Positions 1-23,128 of a DNA stretch of 33,055 bases are shown here, piece after piece. Within the stretch, counting starts at the first letter, position 1, and each line of letters begins with the position of its first letter. The stretch is from Ferruginibacter sp. (lineage in GTDB: Bacteria > Bacteroidota > Bacteroidia > Chitinophagales > Chitinophagaceae): contig JANXTG010000033.1 in the NCBI GenBank assembly GCA_025352525.1, positions 1 through 33,055 on the forward strand, given 5' to 3'. The notes beneath the pieces were generated by a model. That model did no database searches. It saw only the letters and a list, made by a program, of their open reading frames with translations, and was not told the DNA's origin. Made by a program: the position numbers and the translations under genes.

Positions 1-768
1 ATTTGTGGGGCTTTGCTGCTCATGTTTATTTTTATCAGCTGGACGGTTTTGCCACCTGCGCCTGCAGTTGTGCAGGATTTAATGGAAATTAATCTTGGCA
101 ATAACGATGAAGGTTTTGGCGAAGTGCAACCACTCCTAAAAGGACCGGGAAAACCGGAAAAAGAAATTGCTGAACGGCCACAACCTTCACCTGCAAAAGA
201 AGAAGTGGCAGAAGAAAAAATTACGCCAGATGATAATGCAGAAGAAACCGCGGCACCAGTTGTAAAATCAGTAAAAAAATCTATCCCTGTAAAAATAACT
301 TCTAACACTCCTACTACTGCTGTACTGCCGGCACCAAAACCTAAAGCACCCAAACTGGTTTATAATGGTCCGGGCAAACAAAACGGTAATAATGCTACAC
401 AGGATAATGGTTACACCATGCAGGGAAATAATAAGAATGGAAAAGGGGATGCAGGTGACCCAACCGGCAATAAAGATTCGTACGGCAATACACCCGGTGG
501 AAAAGTAGGCGGACCAAAAGTAATAAGCGGTAACAGAAAAGTAGTACGCTATTATTCTTTTACAGGTGAACTTGCAAAGGCAACTATAAATGCAGTCATC
601 AAAGTTTCTCCTGCAGGTGTTGGATCATTTGTTCGAATTGGTCAGGGCAGTACAAGTTTTAGCAGAGATTATGCTACAGCAATATCAGGCTATTTAAGAA
701 CGATGCAATTTGATAAAGCTCCCGATGAAAGTGTGGTTACTGTTCAGTTTAATTTTAATGTGCAGTAA
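1..768 (+). CDS. TonB-like energy transducer protein (5' truncated by window edge)
   Basis: Frame is open to base 1. N-terminal hydrophobic segment, Pro/Glu/Lys-rich periplasmic spacer, and a C-terminal domain ending in VTVQFNFNVQ typical of Bacteroidota TonB-like proteins. Confidence 0.7.
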   Translation: MCGALLLMFIFISWTVLPPAPAVVQDLMEINLGNNDEGFGEVQPLLKGPGKPEKEIAERPQPSPAKEEVAEEKITPDDNAEETAAPVVKSVKKSIPVKITSNTPTTAVLPAPKPKAPKLVYNGPGKQNGNNATQDNGYTMQGNNKNGKGDAGDPTGNKDSYGNTPGGKVGGPKVISGNRKVVRYYSFTGELAKATINAVIKVSPAGVGSFVRIGQGSTSFSRDYATAISGYLRTMQFDKAPDESVVTVQFNFNVQ

Positions 769-1427: not shown

Positions 1428-1465
1428 AAGTGCTGTTTATATAAATCATTTCTACATTTTTGCAA

Positions 1466-2761
1466 ATGAATTACCAACAAACACTTGATTATCTATACAG
1501 CCAGCTACCAATGTTCAGCAGAATTGGCAGTGCCGCTTACAAAACAGATTTACACAATAGCATTGCATTGTGCAACAGCATCGGTAATCCTCAACAACAA
1601 TATAAAACTATTCATGTAGCAGGTACAAATGGCAAAGGCAGTACATCGCATATGCTTGCTGCTATTTTGCAACAGGCAGGTTATAAAACCGGGCTCTATA
1701 CTTCTCCGCACATAAAAGATTTTGGTGAACGCATTAGAGTTAATGGCAAAATGATTGCTGAAAAATTTGTAGTTGATTTTACAGAGCGAACAAAAGTTAT
1801 TACCAAAGAAATCGAACCTTCTTTTTTTGAAATGACGGTTGCAATGGCTTTTCAATATTTTGCAGAACAGCAGGTGGATTTTGCTGTTATAGAAACCGGG
1901 CTTGGTGGCTTGCTGGACAGTACAAATATCATCACACCCATGCTTTCTGTTATTACTAATATTGGTTACGACCACCAAAATATTTTAGGCAATACCCTGC
2001 AAGAAATTGCTACCCAAAAAGCGGGGATAATAAAAGAAAATGTACCCGTTGTAATTGGGGAAACATTACCTGAAACAAAACCGATTTTTGTTGAAACTGC
2101 TTCAAATAAAAATGCTAATATATATTTTGCTGAAGAAAATTTTATTACCTCTTATATAGATTCCGAAGGAGAATTATTGCTTTGTAACGTGCTGGATATT
2201 TCTGAAAACATTACTGAAAAATTCAGGTGTGGCCTGTCAGGATTATATCAGGCAAAAAATATTTGTACGGTTTTGGCGGCTGTAAAAGAACTTAGAAAAT
2301 TAAATATTAATATTCCTGAAACTGCGTTGCATAGCGGTATTGAGAGAGTAAAAGAAATTACCGGCTTGCGTGGAAGGTGGGAAATTTTACAGCATCATCC
2401 AACAATTATTGCAGATGTTGCCCACAATAAAGATGGTATAAAACAGGTAATTGACCAATTAAATACAAATTATCCAACTATACAACTTCATTTTGTGCTG
2501 GGTTTTGTAAGAGATAAAGATGTTGAAGATGTTTTAAAACTGTTTCCGGATAATGCAAAATATTATTTTACAAATGCGCATATACCCCGGGCATTTATAA
2601 ACAGTGAACTGCAGGAAAAAGCTGCTAAAGCCGGATTGGTTGGTGAATGTTTTGAAACAGTAGATGAAGCTGTAAATGCTGCAAAAAAAGTTGCTGCTGT
2701 AACAGATATAATTATGATTTGCGGCAGTTTTTTTATAATTGCTGAAAGCGAACTTTTATAA
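1466..2761 (+). CDS. folC: Bifunctional folylpolyglutamate synthase / dihydrofolate synthase
   Basis: HVAGTNGKGSTSHMLAAIL P-loop, TGLYTSPHIKDFGERIRVNG and ETGLGGLLDSTN are FolC hallmarks. ATG at 1466 is preferred over TTG at 1460. Confidence 0.93.
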   Translation: MNYQQTLDYLYSQLPMFSRIGSAAYKTDLHNSIALCNSIGNPQQQYKTIHVAGTNGKGSTSHMLAAILQQAGYKTGLYTSPHIKDFGERIRVNGKMIAEKFVVDFTERTKVITKEIEPSFFEMTVAMAFQYFAEQQVDFAVIETGLGGLLDSTNIITPMLSVITNIGYDHQNILGNTLQEIATQKAGIIKENVPVVIGETLPETKPIFVETASNKNANIYFAEENFITSYIDSEGELLLCNVLDISENITEKFRCGLSGLYQAKNICTVLAAVKELRKLNINIPETALHSGIERVKEITGLRGRWEILQHHPTIIADVAHNKDGIKQVIDQLNTNYPTIQLHFVLGFVRDKDVEDVLKLFPDNAKYYFTNAHIPRAFINSELQEKAAKAGLVGECFETVDEAVNAAKKVAAVTDIIMICGSFFIIAESELL

Positions 2762-3295
2762 TTTATTTAAAAATTCAGTTGCCCTGAAAAAACAGAGTTC
2801 GTGCATGCTTTGTTTAAATTGATGCGTCTGCACCATGGTTTTTACTTCCTCCAGAGGTTTCAACATAATTGTTATTTCTTCATTTGCATCAAGGGATTGA
2901 TCTGATGTTTTTTCTCCGCCGGTTGCTATGAATAAATGCGTAGCATTGGTTAAAACGCCGGGGTTCGAATATGTTTTACCTAAGTAATGAAATGCTGAAA
3001 AACTATAACCGGTTTCTTCCCGTAACTCACGAACGATCGCCGTTTCAGGCGTTTCTTTCTCGTCTATAAAACCACCGGGGAATTCGATTGATTGCTTTTG
3101 AATAGGGTGACGATATTGCTCGATAAGTAACACCTGCTTTTCTTTTGTAATGGCTACGGCTAAAACACATTCAGGAAGTTCAACTACAAAATAAGGATCT
3201 ACAATTTTACCGGAGGGGGTTTTGTAACTGTCTTTACGGGCAGTAAAATATGGGTGATTGCTAATGTATTCTTTTGAGAGTATTGTAAAAGGCAT
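2756..3295 (-). CDS. NUDIX hydrolase (ADP-ribose pyrophosphatase-like)
   Basis: Nudix box GGFIDEKETPETAIVRELREETGY. Confidence 0.9.
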   Translation of the reverse strand: MPFTILSKEYISNHPYFTARKDSYKTPSGKIVDPYFVVELPECVLAVAITKEKQVLLIEQYRHPIQKQSIEFPGGFIDEKETPETAIVRELREETGYSFSAFHYLGKTYSNPGVLTNATHLFIATGGEKTSDQSLDANEEITIMLKPLEEVKTMVQTHQFKQSMHELCFFRATEFLNKL

Positions 3296-3349
3296 AGAAG
3301 ATTTTTAAGCAAAATGTAAATAAAATTATGTTGTCATTAATTGCATAAT

Positions 3350-3461
3350 AAAAGCTTAAAAATGTTACAACGCTGAAGGGCTGCGGGATAGCAGTGCAAA
3401 TCTTTTTGTGAGGTACGAACAAAAGATTGTAAAGAATAGCCCGAACAAAAGCTTAAAAATG
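3350..3461. repeat. Structured intergenic element flanked by exact 15-bp direct repeats AAAAGCTTAAAAATG (3350-3364 and 3447-3461)
   Basis: Exact repeats bracket an 82-nt core that can fold: GGGCT(3378-3382)/AGCCC(3438-3442) outer pairing and AATCTTTT(3399-3406)/AAAAGATT(3421-3428) inner stem. Confidence 0.6.
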
Positions 3462-3495
3462 AAGAAATATTAACAGCCCCAAACTTTTAAAAAAT

Positions 3496-4023
3496 TCAAC
3501 TCCAACCCATACGTTCCCGCAAGTTGTTTATGTGTGCCGTGTGGTGTTTGCCATGCCATGCATATTGACCTAGTAAATACCAAACGCTCATTTGCTTTCC
3601 ATACTCGGGATGCACAACAGTACGGGTCCACTCATCATCTTTAACGTTTTTTAAAACCTCGAGCATGCGTACATGCAGCGCATGTAACAATGTGAGTGAT
3701 ACATTTATGGGAATATTTTTCACATCGCTCAGTTCTGTAAATGCTTGTTGATTGTAAGGTTTTATAGTTGGATTATCTTCTGTGAGCGCAAGTTTAAAAC
3801 GCATAAATGCGTTGATGTGGCTGTCGGCAACATGGTGCACAACTTCCCTGCTATTCCAGCCATCGGGGCGATAAGGTTCTTCGAGCTGCGCTGCATCTAA
3901 ATTTGTGATGGAATATTCCAAAGCTTTCGGCAATACTTCAATATCAAGCAACCATTCCTTCAACTGCCGTTGAGAGAATGGCTGTTCAATATATTTTCCA
4001 ATTGGATAACTTAAATCATCCAT
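3496..4023 (-). CDS. DinB/YfiT-family putative metal-dependent hydrolase (bacillithiol transferase-like)
   Basis: DLSYPIGKY N-terminus, RPDGWNSREVVHHVADSHINAFMRFKLALTED and YAWHGKHHTAHI metal-ligand pattern typical of YfiT. Confidence 0.85.
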   Translation of the reverse strand: MDDLSYPIGKYIEQPFSQRQLKEWLLDIEVLPKALEYSITNLDAAQLEEPYRPDGWNSREVVHHVADSHINAFMRFKLALTEDNPTIKPYNQQAFTELSDVKNIPINVSLTLLHALHVRMLEVLKNVKDDEWTRTVVHPEYGKQMSVWYLLGQYAWHGKHHTAHINNLRERMGWS

Positions 4024-4025
4024 AA

Positions 4026-4772
4026 TTATTTGGTTGATGCAGGCTGAGCAGGCTTTATATCTTCTAGAGTAATTTCGAAAACTAATAGAGCATTTGGTGT
4101 AATTGGTGAGCCCTGCGGAGGGTATTCGCCATACGCTAAATCACCTGGTATATATACTTTCCAATGTGCGCCTTTGGTCATTAACTGTAAAATTTCTGTC
4201 CAACCTTTTATTACGCCATTTAGTGGAAAAGAAGCTGCCTGTCCACGTTTGAAAGAATTATCAAACTCGGTGCCATTGGCAAGTGTACCAATATAATTTA
4301 CTACAACTGTATCAATTGCTTTTGGTTTTGCACCGTTGGGATCACCGGCTTTTATTACTTCGTATTGTAACCCATTTGCCAGTGCAATAACCCCACTGCG
4401 CTTTTTATTTGTTTCGAGAAATTTTTGAGATTCCTGTTTTTGAACATCAGTTTTCTTTTTTGTAAATGACTGTAATTTTTCCTGCAGTGTTTTACCTGCC
4501 TGTTCTATGGTGAAATCTGTTTTTGATTTGGAATACACATCATTTAAAGCTTTTGCAAATAATGTAGAGTTTATTTTTGTAGCGCCTGCCTGCATTAGGC
4601 TTGCAGCAATGTTCATTCCTGCTGCGTAGCTAAAGCTATCTACTGCATTTTTAAAACCTGCAGTAGATTTTACTGTAACAGGAGAAGTTTTTTTTATGGG
4701 CGACGCTTTCTTCTGTGCATTTACATTTATTAAAGCAATAGCTGCAAAAGCGGTTAATATTAATTTCTTCAT
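4026..4772 (-). CDS. FKBP-type peptidyl-prolyl cis-trans isomerase (exported)
   Basis: Signal peptide, Mip/FkpA-like N-terminal helical domain, then VVVNYIGTLANGTEFDNSFKRGQAASFPLNGVIKGWTEILQLM...GDLAYGEYP...LVFEITLEDI. Confidence 0.9.
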   Translation of the reverse strand: MKKLILTAFAAIALINVNAQKKASPIKKTSPVTVKSTAGFKNAVDSFSYAAGMNIAASLMQAGATKINSTLFAKALNDVYSKSKTDFTIEQAGKTLQEKLQSFTKKKTDVQKQESQKFLETNKKRSGVIALANGLQYEVIKAGDPNGAKPKAIDTVVVNYIGTLANGTEFDNSFKRGQAASFPLNGVIKGWTEILQLMTKGAHWKVYIPGDLAYGEYPPQGSPITPNALLVFEITLEDIKPAQPASTK

Positions 4773-4810
4773 TTTTATATTCTAGGTTTTTAATTTTTTA
4801 TAAATAAAAT

Positions 4811-5572
4811 TTAATCAGGACGCATTTCTTTTCCTGTTAAATGTATAAAAACATCTTCGAGGTTAGCAGACTTTACTTGTTTAGGCCTTTCAAATCCTGT
4901 TGCAACAAGTTCATCTATCATCTTATCCGGCGTATCGAGTTTTATTATTTTGCCTTCATCCATAATGGCAATTCTGTCGCAAAGTTGTTCGGCCTCATCC
5001 ATGTAATGTGTAGTCAGAATTACGGTTGTACCTGCTGATCTTATTTCACGAATTAAATCCCATAAATTTCTGCGGGCCTGAGGATCCAAACCGGTTGTAG
5101 GCTCATCTAAAAAAATAATTTTGGGGTCGTTTATTAACGTTGTCGCTATAGAGAAACGTTGTTTTTGACCGCCACTTAATTCCTTGCTTTTATTTTTTGC
5201 CTTATCAACCAGATTTACTTTTTTTAATAGCTCAAGTGCATTTACATCTCTATTATAAAGTCCGCTAAAAAGTTTGATAAGTTCCAACAAATTTAAACCG
5301 GGATAAAATCCTGAAGTCTGTAACTGAACACCAATAATTTTTTTTATTTCTTCAGGTTCTGTATCAAGGTCAAAACCGTTTACAAAAACTTTTCCTGATG
5401 TTTTGGGCCGCAGGGTTTCTATAATTTCCAGTGTGGTACTTTTACCTGCACCGTTAGGGCCAAGCAGCCCAAAGATTTCACCTTCTTCAACATTAAATGA
5501 AACAGATTTTACAGCTTCAAACTGGCCGTAATTTTTTACAAGATTTTCAACTCTTATTATTGAATTTGACAT
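4811..5572 (-). CDS. ABC transporter ATP-binding protein
   Basis: Walker A GPNGAGKST, signature LSGGQKQR, Walker B IIFLDEPTTGLD. Confidence 0.92.
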   Translation of the reverse strand: MSNSIIRVENLVKNYGQFEAVKSVSFNVEEGEIFGLLGPNGAGKSTTLEIIETLRPKTSGKVFVNGFDLDTEPEEIKKIIGVQLQTSGFYPGLNLLELIKLFSGLYNRDVNALELLKKVNLVDKAKNKSKELSGGQKQRFSIATTLINDPKIIFLDEPTTGLDPQARRNLWDLIREIRSAGTTVILTTHYMDEAEQLCDRIAIMDEGKIIKLDTPDKMIDELVATGFERPKQVKSANLEDVFIHLTGKEMRPD

Positions 5573-5617
5573 TGAAGTAAAGTTATGTAATGATATATTT
5601 AAAACAGCATTACAAAA

Positions 5618-6649
5618 TTAAACTGCTGCATCTTTTGAAGCTGCAAATAAATAACTTTCCAGTTCTTCCATCATATTAATACTTCCTACAAAGAAAGGTG
5701 TGCGCTGGTGCAATTCTGTTGGAACAATATCTAAAATATTAATTTTTCCATTCGTAGCTTTTCCTCCCGCTTTTTCAACAATGTATGCAAATGGATTACA
5801 CTCGTATAACAACCTAAGTTTACCGCCCGGTTTGTCAATAGTGCCTGGATACATAAAAATTCCGCCTTTTATAAGATTGCGGTGCACATCAGAAACCATG
5901 CTGCCAATGTAGCGTTGTGTGTATGGGCCACCGTTTGATTTATCTTTTTTCTGACATGCGGTAATATATTCCTTAACAGGTTGATCGTACCTAAAAAAGT
6001 TACCGTGGTTTACAGAATACATTTTACCTGCCGGGGGACATTGTATATTTTGATGGCTCATTAAATATTCGCCGATTTGCCTGTCTAGGGTAAAGCCATT
6101 AACCCCACGTTTTGTTGCATAAACCAACATGGTAGAAGAACCGAATACAACATAACCCGCAGCCACCTGCTTATTACCAGGTTGCAAAAAATCTGCTTTA
6201 GTTGCAGGTTTTCCCAGTTCACTAACACGCCTGTAAATACTGAAGATAGTTCCGATGGAAACATTTACATCGATATTGGAGCTCCCGTCCAAAGGATCAA
6301 AGAGACAAACATATTTTGATTTGTTGCTTGTCTCGTCATCAAATATTACAATATCATCCAACTCTTCGCTCCCAATTCCTGCACAGCTAATACCATGTCT
6401 TAAAACACCAACGAGTTGGTCGTTTGCAAAAATATCCAGTTTTTTTACTTCTTCACCCTGTATATTGGTGGTGCCGTGATCACCTAAAATATCTACCAGT
6501 CCTGCTTTATTAACTTCTACGTTTACTCTTTTACAGGCAAGACCTATATCTCTTAAAAGCCCCGCCAATTCTCCCGTTGCTAAAGGAAAAGCACGCATTT
6601 CCTGAATGGTAAATTCGTCAAGGGTAAGTATATTTCTGTTTATAGCCAT
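5618..6649 (-). CDS. fbp: Class 1 fructose-1,6-bisphosphatase
   Basis: FDPLDGSSNIDVNVSIGTIFSIYR, RYIGSMVSDVHRNLIKGGIFMYPGT, KLRLLYECNPFAYIVEKAGGKA. Confidence 0.95.
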   Translation of the reverse strand: MAINRNILTLDEFTIQEMRAFPLATGELAGLLRDIGLACKRVNVEVNKAGLVDILGDHGTTNIQGEEVKKLDIFANDQLVGVLRHGISCAGIGSEELDDIVIFDDETSNKSKYVCLFDPLDGSSNIDVNVSIGTIFSIYRRVSELGKPATKADFLQPGNKQVAAGYVVFGSSTMLVYATKRGVNGFTLDRQIGEYLMSHQNIQCPPAGKMYSVNHGNFFRYDQPVKEYITACQKKDKSNGGPYTQRYIGSMVSDVHRNLIKGGIFMYPGTIDKPGGKLRLLYECNPFAYIVEKAGGKATNGKINILDIVPTELHQRTPFFVGSINMMEELESYLFAASKDAAV

Positions 6650-6895
6650 GTAGTAGATTTAAGATTTATAATTGCAGATTTTAAATAATAAAAAAAATTC
6701 TATCTGATTTCGTATGAGAAATGCAAAGTAATAATAATTTTAGAAAAAATGACCTGACAGGTTGTTGGATATTGGATGATGCTTGTATATTAGATTTTAA
6801 AGTTTGATGCTGAGCAATTAAATTCGCATCAAAGGCTGCTTATTAAACGCAGCGAGAAAAATTTTACAACATACACTCAAATAGAAAAATAAAAC

Positions 6896-8161
6896 ATGTT
6901 TGTTTTCAAGTTTGGCGGAGCATCGATAAATAATATTGAGCGAATAAAAAACACTTCGGATATAATAAGAGATAAGGCAGATAAGAAATTATTGGTGGTT
7001 GTATCTGCGATGGGCAAAACAACTAATGCCTTGGAAAAAATTACAGAAGCTTATTTTGATGACCGAAAAGATGATGCCCTTACACTTTTTGAACAGGTTA
7101 AAAAGAATCACCTGGAAACAGTAAAATTTTTATTGGTTCACAAATGGAAAGCTGCTGAAGACCAGTTAAAAGATTTTTTTACAGAGATTGAATGGATGCT
7201 TCACGACAAACCTGTACGCAGTTATGACTATTATTATGATCAGATTGTTTGCTGTGGAGAATTGTTCAGCACCTGCATTGTAGCCCATTATTTAGCAGAA
7301 CAAAAAGTAAAAGTAAAATGGGTTGATGTTAGGGACATTTTTAGAACCGATAATAATTTTAGAGATGCAGGTGTTGATTTTGATTTTACAACATCAAAAA
7401 TAAAGAACAGTATTTTACCATTGTACAATGACTTTGATGTAATAATGACGCAGGGGTTTATTGGCTCTACTGATGAAAATGAAAGTACAACACTAGGCAG
7501 AGAAGGAAGTGATTACTCTGCAGCTATTTTTGCAAATATTATGAATGCAGAATCATTAACCATTTGGAAAGATGTGCCTGCAGTTATGAATGCAGATCCT
7601 AATAAATTTAAAGATGCGGTAAACATTCCTTTGTTGAATTATACAGAAGTTATTGAAATGGCTTATTACGGGGCTCAGGTTATTCACCCAAAAACAATAA
7701 AGCCTTTACAAAATAAAAATATCCCGCTTTATGTAAAAAGTTTTTTAGATACTAATTTGCCGGGAACCATTATCAATGCTGATAAAGCAATAAATCTCCC
7801 TCCTATTATTGTACTAAAAGGTCAACAGGTTTTAATACATTTTCGTTCAAAAGATTTCTCATTTATGGAGGGTAAAGCTTTGGGGCAATTGCATAAAATT
7901 TTTAATGCTGTAAAGTTGCAGCCAAATCTTACACAAAATACTGCCATATCATTTGTTTGCTGTTTTGATGGTCATGCAGAAAAAACCGGTCAGATAGCCG
8001 CAGATGCTTCTTTACTTTTTGATGTAGATGTTGAAAGAGATTTATCCCTACTTACAATTCGCCATTATGATAATGCAACAATAGAAATACTTACCAAAGA
8101 TAAAAATACTATTCTTGAACAAAGAACTCCTGAAACTTTGCAGGCTGTTATAAGAAACTAA
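6896..8161 (+). CDS. Aspartate kinase
   Basis: KFGGASINNIERIKN N-terminus, TLGREGSDYSAAIFA, IWKDVPAVMNADP, AYYGAQVIHPKTI. Confidence 0.92.
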   Translation: MFVFKFGGASINNIERIKNTSDIIRDKADKKLLVVVSAMGKTTNALEKITEAYFDDRKDDALTLFEQVKKNHLETVKFLLVHKWKAAEDQLKDFFTEIEWMLHDKPVRSYDYYYDQIVCCGELFSTCIVAHYLAEQKVKVKWVDVRDIFRTDNNFRDAGVDFDFTTSKIKNSILPLYNDFDVIMTQGFIGSTDENESTTLGREGSDYSAAIFANIMNAESLTIWKDVPAVMNADPNKFKDAVNIPLLNYTEVIEMAYYGAQVIHPKTIKPLQNKNIPLYVKSFLDTNLPGTIINADKAINLPPIIVLKGQQVLIHFRSKDFSFMEGKALGQLHKIFNAVKLQPNLTQNTAISFVCCFDGHAEKTGQIAADASLLFDVDVERDLSLLTIRHYDNATIEILTKDKNTILEQRTPETLQAVIRN

Positions 8162-22441: not shown

Positions 22442-22867
22442 ATGATTTTAAAGATATTAACGGTTGCAGGTTTAGCCACATTTGAAATTTATGTGGCAAT
22501 ACCTACGGGTTTTGCTATGGGTTTATCTCCATGGGTTATATTTTTTTCAAGTGTCATTGGTGGGCTCACAGGTGTTTTTGTGGCTGCTTTTTTGGGAGAT
22601 AAAATAAAAAGTTTTGTTGCCCGATATAAAAAACCAAAAGTAAAAGAAATAAAAACAGATACACTTGCTCACAGAATATGGAATAAGTTTGGCGTAATAG
22701 GGCTTGGATTTTTTGGAACTTTTACAGTAGGTGCACCTATCAGCATTGCAGTCGGCGTTGGTTTAAATGCATCTTTAAACAAACTTGCTTTTTGGTGTTG
22801 TGTCGGTGTTATTGCAAGGTGCATTGTATTTACACTCACAGGTTATTATGGTATGAAGTTGTTGTAG
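22442..22867 (+). CDS. Small multi-drug export-like integral membrane protein
   Basis: 142-aa class hydrophobic protein with IYVAIPTGFAMGLSPW and FGTFTVGAPISIAVGVGLNASLNKL. Confidence 0.6.
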   Translation: MILKILTVAGLATFEIYVAIPTGFAMGLSPWVIFFSSVIGGLTGVFVAAFLGDKIKSFVARYKKPKVKEIKTDTLAHRIWNKFGVIGLGFFGTFTVGAPISIAVGVGLNASLNKLAFWCCVGVIARCIVFTLTGYYGMKLL

Positions 22868-23128
22868 GAATTCCAACTAGAGCCAAAAATAATTGGAAAT
22901 AAATAAAATGAAATTTTACATAATTTTATTTAGTTCTTCACTTAAAAATTATATGTCATAACCTTCAAAGTCACAACTTGTGATTTTGCTGTAAGAACCA
23001 CAGTTTCCTTGTAGACCCATTAAAATAGTTTTAGATTTTTTGTAAAAAATATTTTAAACGCATTGTCATTATTATAAGAATGATCTTATATGTTAGATCA
23101 AAAATGGATTTTCTCCCCTCTTTTTCCC

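Follow-up and report, generated by a model that had tools for sequence, protein, structure and literature searches.

Introduction

Flavo-1 (Rfam RF01705), the closest described system to the element reported here, has been listed since 2010 and has had no function assigned after 16 years. Weinberg et al. (2010; PMC2864571) scored it 'RNA? y', Rfam types it as an sRNA, and it counts among the most abundant sRNA families (PMC9029176). In F. psychrophilum, Flavo-1 matches lie indistinctly sense or antisense, many of them outside transcribed regions, and several structured 5' regions coincide with such matches (PMC9723704). A second class of dispersed sequences that bears on this element, the REP elements, consists of 20-40 bp palindromes tagged with GTAG or CGTC at one end (PMC3733652).

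Here we analyse a stretch of 33,055 nucleotides from Ferruginibacter sp. (assembly GCA_025352525.1, contig JANXTG010000033.1, positions 1 to 33,055 of the forward strand; hereafter the window), in which an original prediction had singled out positions 3350-3461 as a structured intergenic element bracketed by exact direct repeats. We find that the feature belongs to the Flavo-1 family, as an old copy with an extended architecture. The family itself is known; this architecture is new.

Results

The neighbours of the element are two minus-strand genes, one for a NUDIX hydrolase (2756-3295), the other for DinB_2 (3496-4023), and it had been placed correctly upstream of the NUDIX start. On the plus strand, cmscan matched positions 3375-3450 to the full Flavo-1 model (1-76) with 46.0 bits (E=1.6e-8), above the RF01705 gathering score of 42, and the Bacteroidota host, the many copies and the lack of a fixed gene context agree with this assignment. 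The host genome contains 75 Flavo-1 matches at E<=10, 47 of them above the gathering score. The labels of the original prediction, 'recurrent Bacteroidota intergenic repeat', 'REP-like' and 'ncRNA', thus pointed at the right object, although the defining tests for a REP failed, as described below. Far from being a single-copy sequence without homologues, covariation or element-free relatives, the element has many copies and strong covariation, and there are genomes that lack it at this junction. The fold of positions 3350-3461 is no more stable than that of shuffled sequences on either strand (z = -0.79 on the plus and -0.15 on the minus strand), so that the element would be dismissed on energy alone.

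For the anatomy of the family, 67 host copies were extracted with their flanks, the weakest being left out, and the 65 with both sides complete were used. Their alignment delimits an extended element common to the host copies, which spans 3347-3484 (+) in the window and is conserved relative to its flanks between orthologues. Read along the plus strand, it comprises a left flanking motif (AAAAGYTGAAAAAAG, 3350-3364), the 5' arms of an outer helix (GGGCTG, 3378-3383) and of an inner helix (CGGG, 3384-3387), a stem with two internal loops, an apical hairpin (AATCTTTT...AAAAGATT, 3399-3428, with its loop at 3407-3420), the 3' arm of the inner helix (CCCG, 3440-3443), a right flanking motif (AAATGYTGAANAAAG, 3447-3461) and, finally, the 3' arm of the outer helix (CAGCCC, 3474-3479) followed by CAAA. 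Both flanking motifs, which correspond to the first and second direct repeats of the original prediction, are conserved across loci and belong to the Flavo-1 family unit.

The internal loops are symmetric, 5'-GNA-3'/5'-GNA-3', and two base pairs apart (62 copies). In the first loop (3391-3393, partner 3434-3436), G.A is found in 60/62 and A.G in 59/62 copies, and in the second (3396-3398, partner 3429-3431) in 60/62 and 50/62, the middle base being free in both. The two base pairs between them join 3394-3395 with 3432-3433; one of these is lost in the window copy, which has G.A at 3394/3433 where 48/62 copies have G-C. Such (GNA)2 loops are familiar from nucleic acid structure work.

Pairs of the inner helix and of the stem are Watson-Crick in 54-62 of the 62 copies, with extensive double substitutions, and the 3' arm of the inner helix takes part in this covariation. 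The outer helix changes as a unit, with the classes GGGCTG/CAGCCC, GCGG/CCGC, ACG/CGT and AGC/GCT, and its within-copy pairing was better than in all 10000 permutations (0/10000). In a pair count on the alignment, the covariation score was 0.399, compared with 0.154 for shuffles and 0.049-0.105 for slid controls, and double-change cells numbered 123 versus 43; the outer helix was only 57% paired in this count, since its classes are not brought into register by the alignment. These results show that one strand, plus in the window, is constrained to adopt a fold in which the outer and inner helices are followed by a stem that contains both (GNA)2 loops and ends in a variable apical hairpin. The same strand is favoured by the conserved G.A pairs, which exist on one strand only, and by 11 G-T versus 2 A-C pairs (13 to 6 once sister copies, parsed automatically, are added). 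Among the pairings proposed at the outset, AATCTTTT/AAAAGATT (3399-3406/3421-3428) is real and conserved. A GGGCT/AGCCC pairing was right only in that GGGCTG does pair, but with a CAGCCC located outside the span then considered, within which it is CGGG that pairs with CCCG; an alternative CTGC/GCAG hairpin is without support.

Several variants of this plan were seen. At three loci (L068, L065 and L066), a GCTGC-containing sequence (GGGCTGCGCTGCTTA...GCGGGCAGCG) stands in place of the inner helix and GATAG. Four stretches of the host genome (G000 C37:1551-1655, C187:2607-2737, C183:5786-5919 and C181:12398-12431) resemble a Flavo-1-like stretch whose apical arm is long and are unreported by the Rfam model; the genome probably has more than 75 copies in all. 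In a complete genome of another family, taken as Flavobacterium (G116), the outer arm follows almost directly after the inner helix in nine of the ten copies read, the tenth having a spacer like that of Ferruginibacter.

Among named relatives, a Ferruginibacter genome from a metagenome is the nearest, with identities of 91% for DinB and 79% for the window DNA. The sister genome (G060) contains 44 Flavo-1 matches, and at least 26 of its copies share flanks with host copies, with identical orientation in all. Flank searches covered in full 10 of 13 host sites and 10 of 14 sister sites, and one further sister site in part. Two apparent absences in the sister, once their sequence was read, turned out to be diverged elements missed by the model, and other sites lie at contig ends or beside longer inserts, for which reasons we do not claim a low overlap between the two species. 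As most copies are common to the sister, they are old. The window copy has its counterpart there at the identical junction; in the sister, the right motif has diverged (ACATGATGATAATTG) and the apical loop is of a different type (GTGAGGTACGAAC vs GCTGCATTTGAGC). The window copy predates the split of the two species.

Orthologous copies also allowed us to follow change in place. Over 23 copies and eight canonical pairs, 166 of 184 cells are unchanged Watson-Crick pairs, eight underwent compensatory double changes and three lost the pair; the free N.N position changed in 16/23 copies. Identity between orthologues is 88-89% in the helices, 82% in the distal outer arm and 68% in both motifs, versus 46% in the upstream and 63% in the downstream flank. 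In about 5-7 of 22 orthologous pairs, the two apical loops clearly differ in type, and the presence of the replacing types at further loci suggests that copies have exchanged them. Taken together, the frozen pairs, the compensatory changes and the loop data indicate that selection, or conversion from selected copies, acts on individual copies.

Other features of the sister genome were noted alongside. Several of its copies (L193, L167, L186 and L208) have an abrupt start behind ...AACTAAATGACATT, which looks like the terminus of a different element with inverted repeats, and the copy at L193 is split by a sequence with inverted ends AATGTCATTTAATTAAGG. The flanks of one host copy are found at the ends of two sister contigs (C123 and C279). 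A sister locus (L149) aligns to window positions 1-768 and 1448-7040, the two aligned parts being about 33 bp apart; a module of the MntA-HepT toxin-antitoxin type, made of a nucleotidyltransferase (NTP_transf_2/Polbeta) and a HepT-like RNase (710-1427), is thus present in the window and absent there.

The exact 15-bp repeats AAAAGCTTAAAAATG (3350-3364 and 3447-3461) and a 10-bp inverted copy (3301-3310) exist as claimed. The direct repeat is in fact one of 18 bp with one mismatch (3347-3364 vs 3444-3461), and all other places in the window differ from the 15-mer by two mismatches or more; the inverted 10-mer falls beyond the limits of the conserved unit, and the sister has not retained it. 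The explanation favoured at first was a recent MITE insertion that produced a 15-bp target duplication, for which the exact flanking repeat, the dispersed copies, the patchy distribution and one clear present/absent difference between sister species can be cited. However, left and right motifs are no more alike within a copy (8.29/15) than between copies (8.10/15; p=0.14, 65 copies), and are identical over 15/15 positions in only 2/65 copies. The flanking repeats are therefore family motifs, not locus-specific target duplications, and the exact repeat in the window is two related motifs coinciding by chance of sequence. In a genome of another family (G036, 60 matches), both flanks share a different motif, of ACGAAG type, so that the two motifs change together between lineages. 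Moreover, the closest two host copies are 85% identical and the mean across copies is 53%, which speaks against a recent burst. The motif comparison, together with the sister orthologue, which lacks the exact repeat, refutes target duplication for the window copy, itself older than the sister split, and we give a MITE origin hardly any credence.

The FolC-NUDIX-DinB-FKBP gene order is kept in most relatives, where the NUDIX-DinB gap is often only 13-50 bp. The element is absent at these orthologous junctions, whose flanks are too diverged to read a footprint, and the NUDIX-DinB junction of relatives yielded no precise empty site containing just one AAAAGCTTAAAAATG. Nine other loci searched had no Flavo-1. 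The present/absent difference mentioned above concerns a site (C60:10209-10736) that is occupied in the sister and unoccupied here, again with flanks too diverged for a footprint. In the sister interval that matches window positions 22858-23108 there are a Flavo-1 copy and a broken second copy, neither of which is seen in the window. Genomes of the same genus have 0-10 matches at E<=1e-5, compared with 52 in the host by the same search. Across the phylum, at least 17 of 148 genomes have Flavo-1 at E<=1e-6, several with at least 20 matches, these per-genome counts being lower bounds. A search of phages gave no match, and one of plasmids only four weak matches in Paraclostridium, which we take as chance. 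The distribution is thus patchy between genomes, yet mostly shared with the nearest sister.

Do the copies act through a transcript? They are intergenic and their orientation to genes is not consistent: neighbouring genes lie on the opposite and the same strand in ratios of 69:52, 44:30 and 12:26 in three genomes. In 21-23 copies, about a third and including that of the window, both neighbouring genes are antisense to the strand that folds, and the structure is kept there too. These observations weigh against the possibility that Flavo-1 is a cis-acting element of a neighbouring mRNA (a 5' leader, 3' UTR stabiliser or terminator). Many copies are indeed close to a gene end (within about 100 bp), and the structured 5' regions of F. 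psychrophilum (PMC9723704) would fit. Nevertheless, orientation is inconsistent both within and between genomes, the fold is kept also in copies antisense to both neighbours, and an associated gene family was not seen among the contexts inspected, leaving this explanation very unlikely.

Orientation relative to genes would be irrelevant if the copies were putative small RNA genes with their own promoters, acting in trans or binding a protein. This would accord with the Rfam type and with the score of Weinberg et al. (PMC2864571), and strong covariation with compensatory change in situ is what one expects of a functional RNA. Against it, the Bacteroidota promoter motif is not enriched upstream of the copies (3/65 vs 4.9 expected), although a promoter of another type could serve, and the upstream flank is poorly conserved between orthologues. 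There is no conserved T-run past the 3' end of the aligned copies, and wobble pairs are few, G-T occupying 11/620 paired cells as against 16/269 in 12 local tRNAs, a small contrast. Many F. psychrophilum copies lie outside transcribed regions (PMC9723704), and copy number ranges from 0 to more than 50 within one genus. We consider small RNA genes unlikely, if still a serious alternative, and an action as RNA of any kind doubtful. As for replication, a strand bias was not seen in one complete genome (15/27 copies), where GC skew is too noisy to judge.

A dispersed, intergenic, strand-specific imperfect palindrome invites comparison with REP elements proper, mobilised by a RAYT (Y1 tyrosine transposase), all the more as Y1 transposases are common in relatives. 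But the element is 138 bp long instead of 20-40, and the tags are missing, GTAG being found in 1/65 left feet and CGTC in 0/65. The host genome has one Y1 fragment and no intact RAYT, 20 transposase loci of relatives are without Flavo-1 within about 1.5 kb, and Flavo-1 copy number does not follow Y1 number. The CGTC repeats are likewise without a linked RAYT (PMC3733652). All considered, membership among REP elements proper appears highly improbable.

Discussion

Overall, we lean, if only slightly, towards Flavo-1 acting as DNA. The explanation that we prefer, and to which we would give about an even chance, is that of an old, dispersed, strand-specific family of DNA hairpins that acts as DNA and not as a transcript. 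Folding of the G/A-rich strand would take place in the single-stranded state, during replication, repair or transcription, or upon extrusion, and both (GNA)2 loops and the helix junction would serve as recognition features for a putative protein; no protein partner for Flavo-1 was found. Past spread may have occurred by strand-specific copying of hairpins, now rare in this clade, and copies would be kept as putative protein-binding sites, like REP/BIME in Proteobacteria. We infer mobility from the patchiness only: most copies predate the sister split, with no precise insertion footprint.

More tentatively, and with somewhat less than even confidence, we propose that Flavo-1 is specific to Bacteroidota and has its own recognition protein, its outer helix and motifs varying between lineages and its loop modules being exchanged while the fold is selected, in which case this strand-specific DNA hairpin family would be a separately evolved functional counterpart of REP/BIME. 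Should the copies indeed act as DNA, many sRNA annotations would concern the wrong kind of molecule, and an interspersed hairpin system of Bacteroidota would have gone unrecognised. A search for the binding protein can draw on concrete probes, namely the pairs of copies between sister species, the (GNA)2 loops and the extended anatomy. On the practical side, Flavo-1 repeats may break metagenome assemblies.

How does the element compare with known systems? With integron attC sites it has in common a structure conserved over sequence, a single functional strand and a variable apex. In contrast to attC, its flanking motifs are direct, inverted RYYYAAC...GTTRRRY boxes were not noticed when the aligned copies were inspected, and its copies are scattered, not set in cassette arrays. 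Non-autonomous ends of IS200/IS605 type resemble it in their folded single strand and in flanking motifs that differ between lineages, whereas Flavo-1 has neither a pair of left and right end hairpins nor a transposase, and no cleavage/guide pair is shown. The family of Weinberg et al. (2010; PMC2864571) agrees in core sequence and secondary structure, in its Bacteroidota hosts, in its many copies and in having no consistent gene association, but the unit described here is longer than the Rfam model, with flanking repeated motifs and a distal outer-helix arm about 30 nt away. Finally, REP/BIME with RAYT (TnpA-REP) share with Flavo-1 dispersed, intergenic, strand-specific imperfect hairpins with heterogeneous stems and loops and a long retention; Flavo-1 is longer than these, without a GTAG/CGTC tag and without a linked Y1 transposase. 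In our reading, it is a family that works like REP elements, yet it fails the tests for being one.
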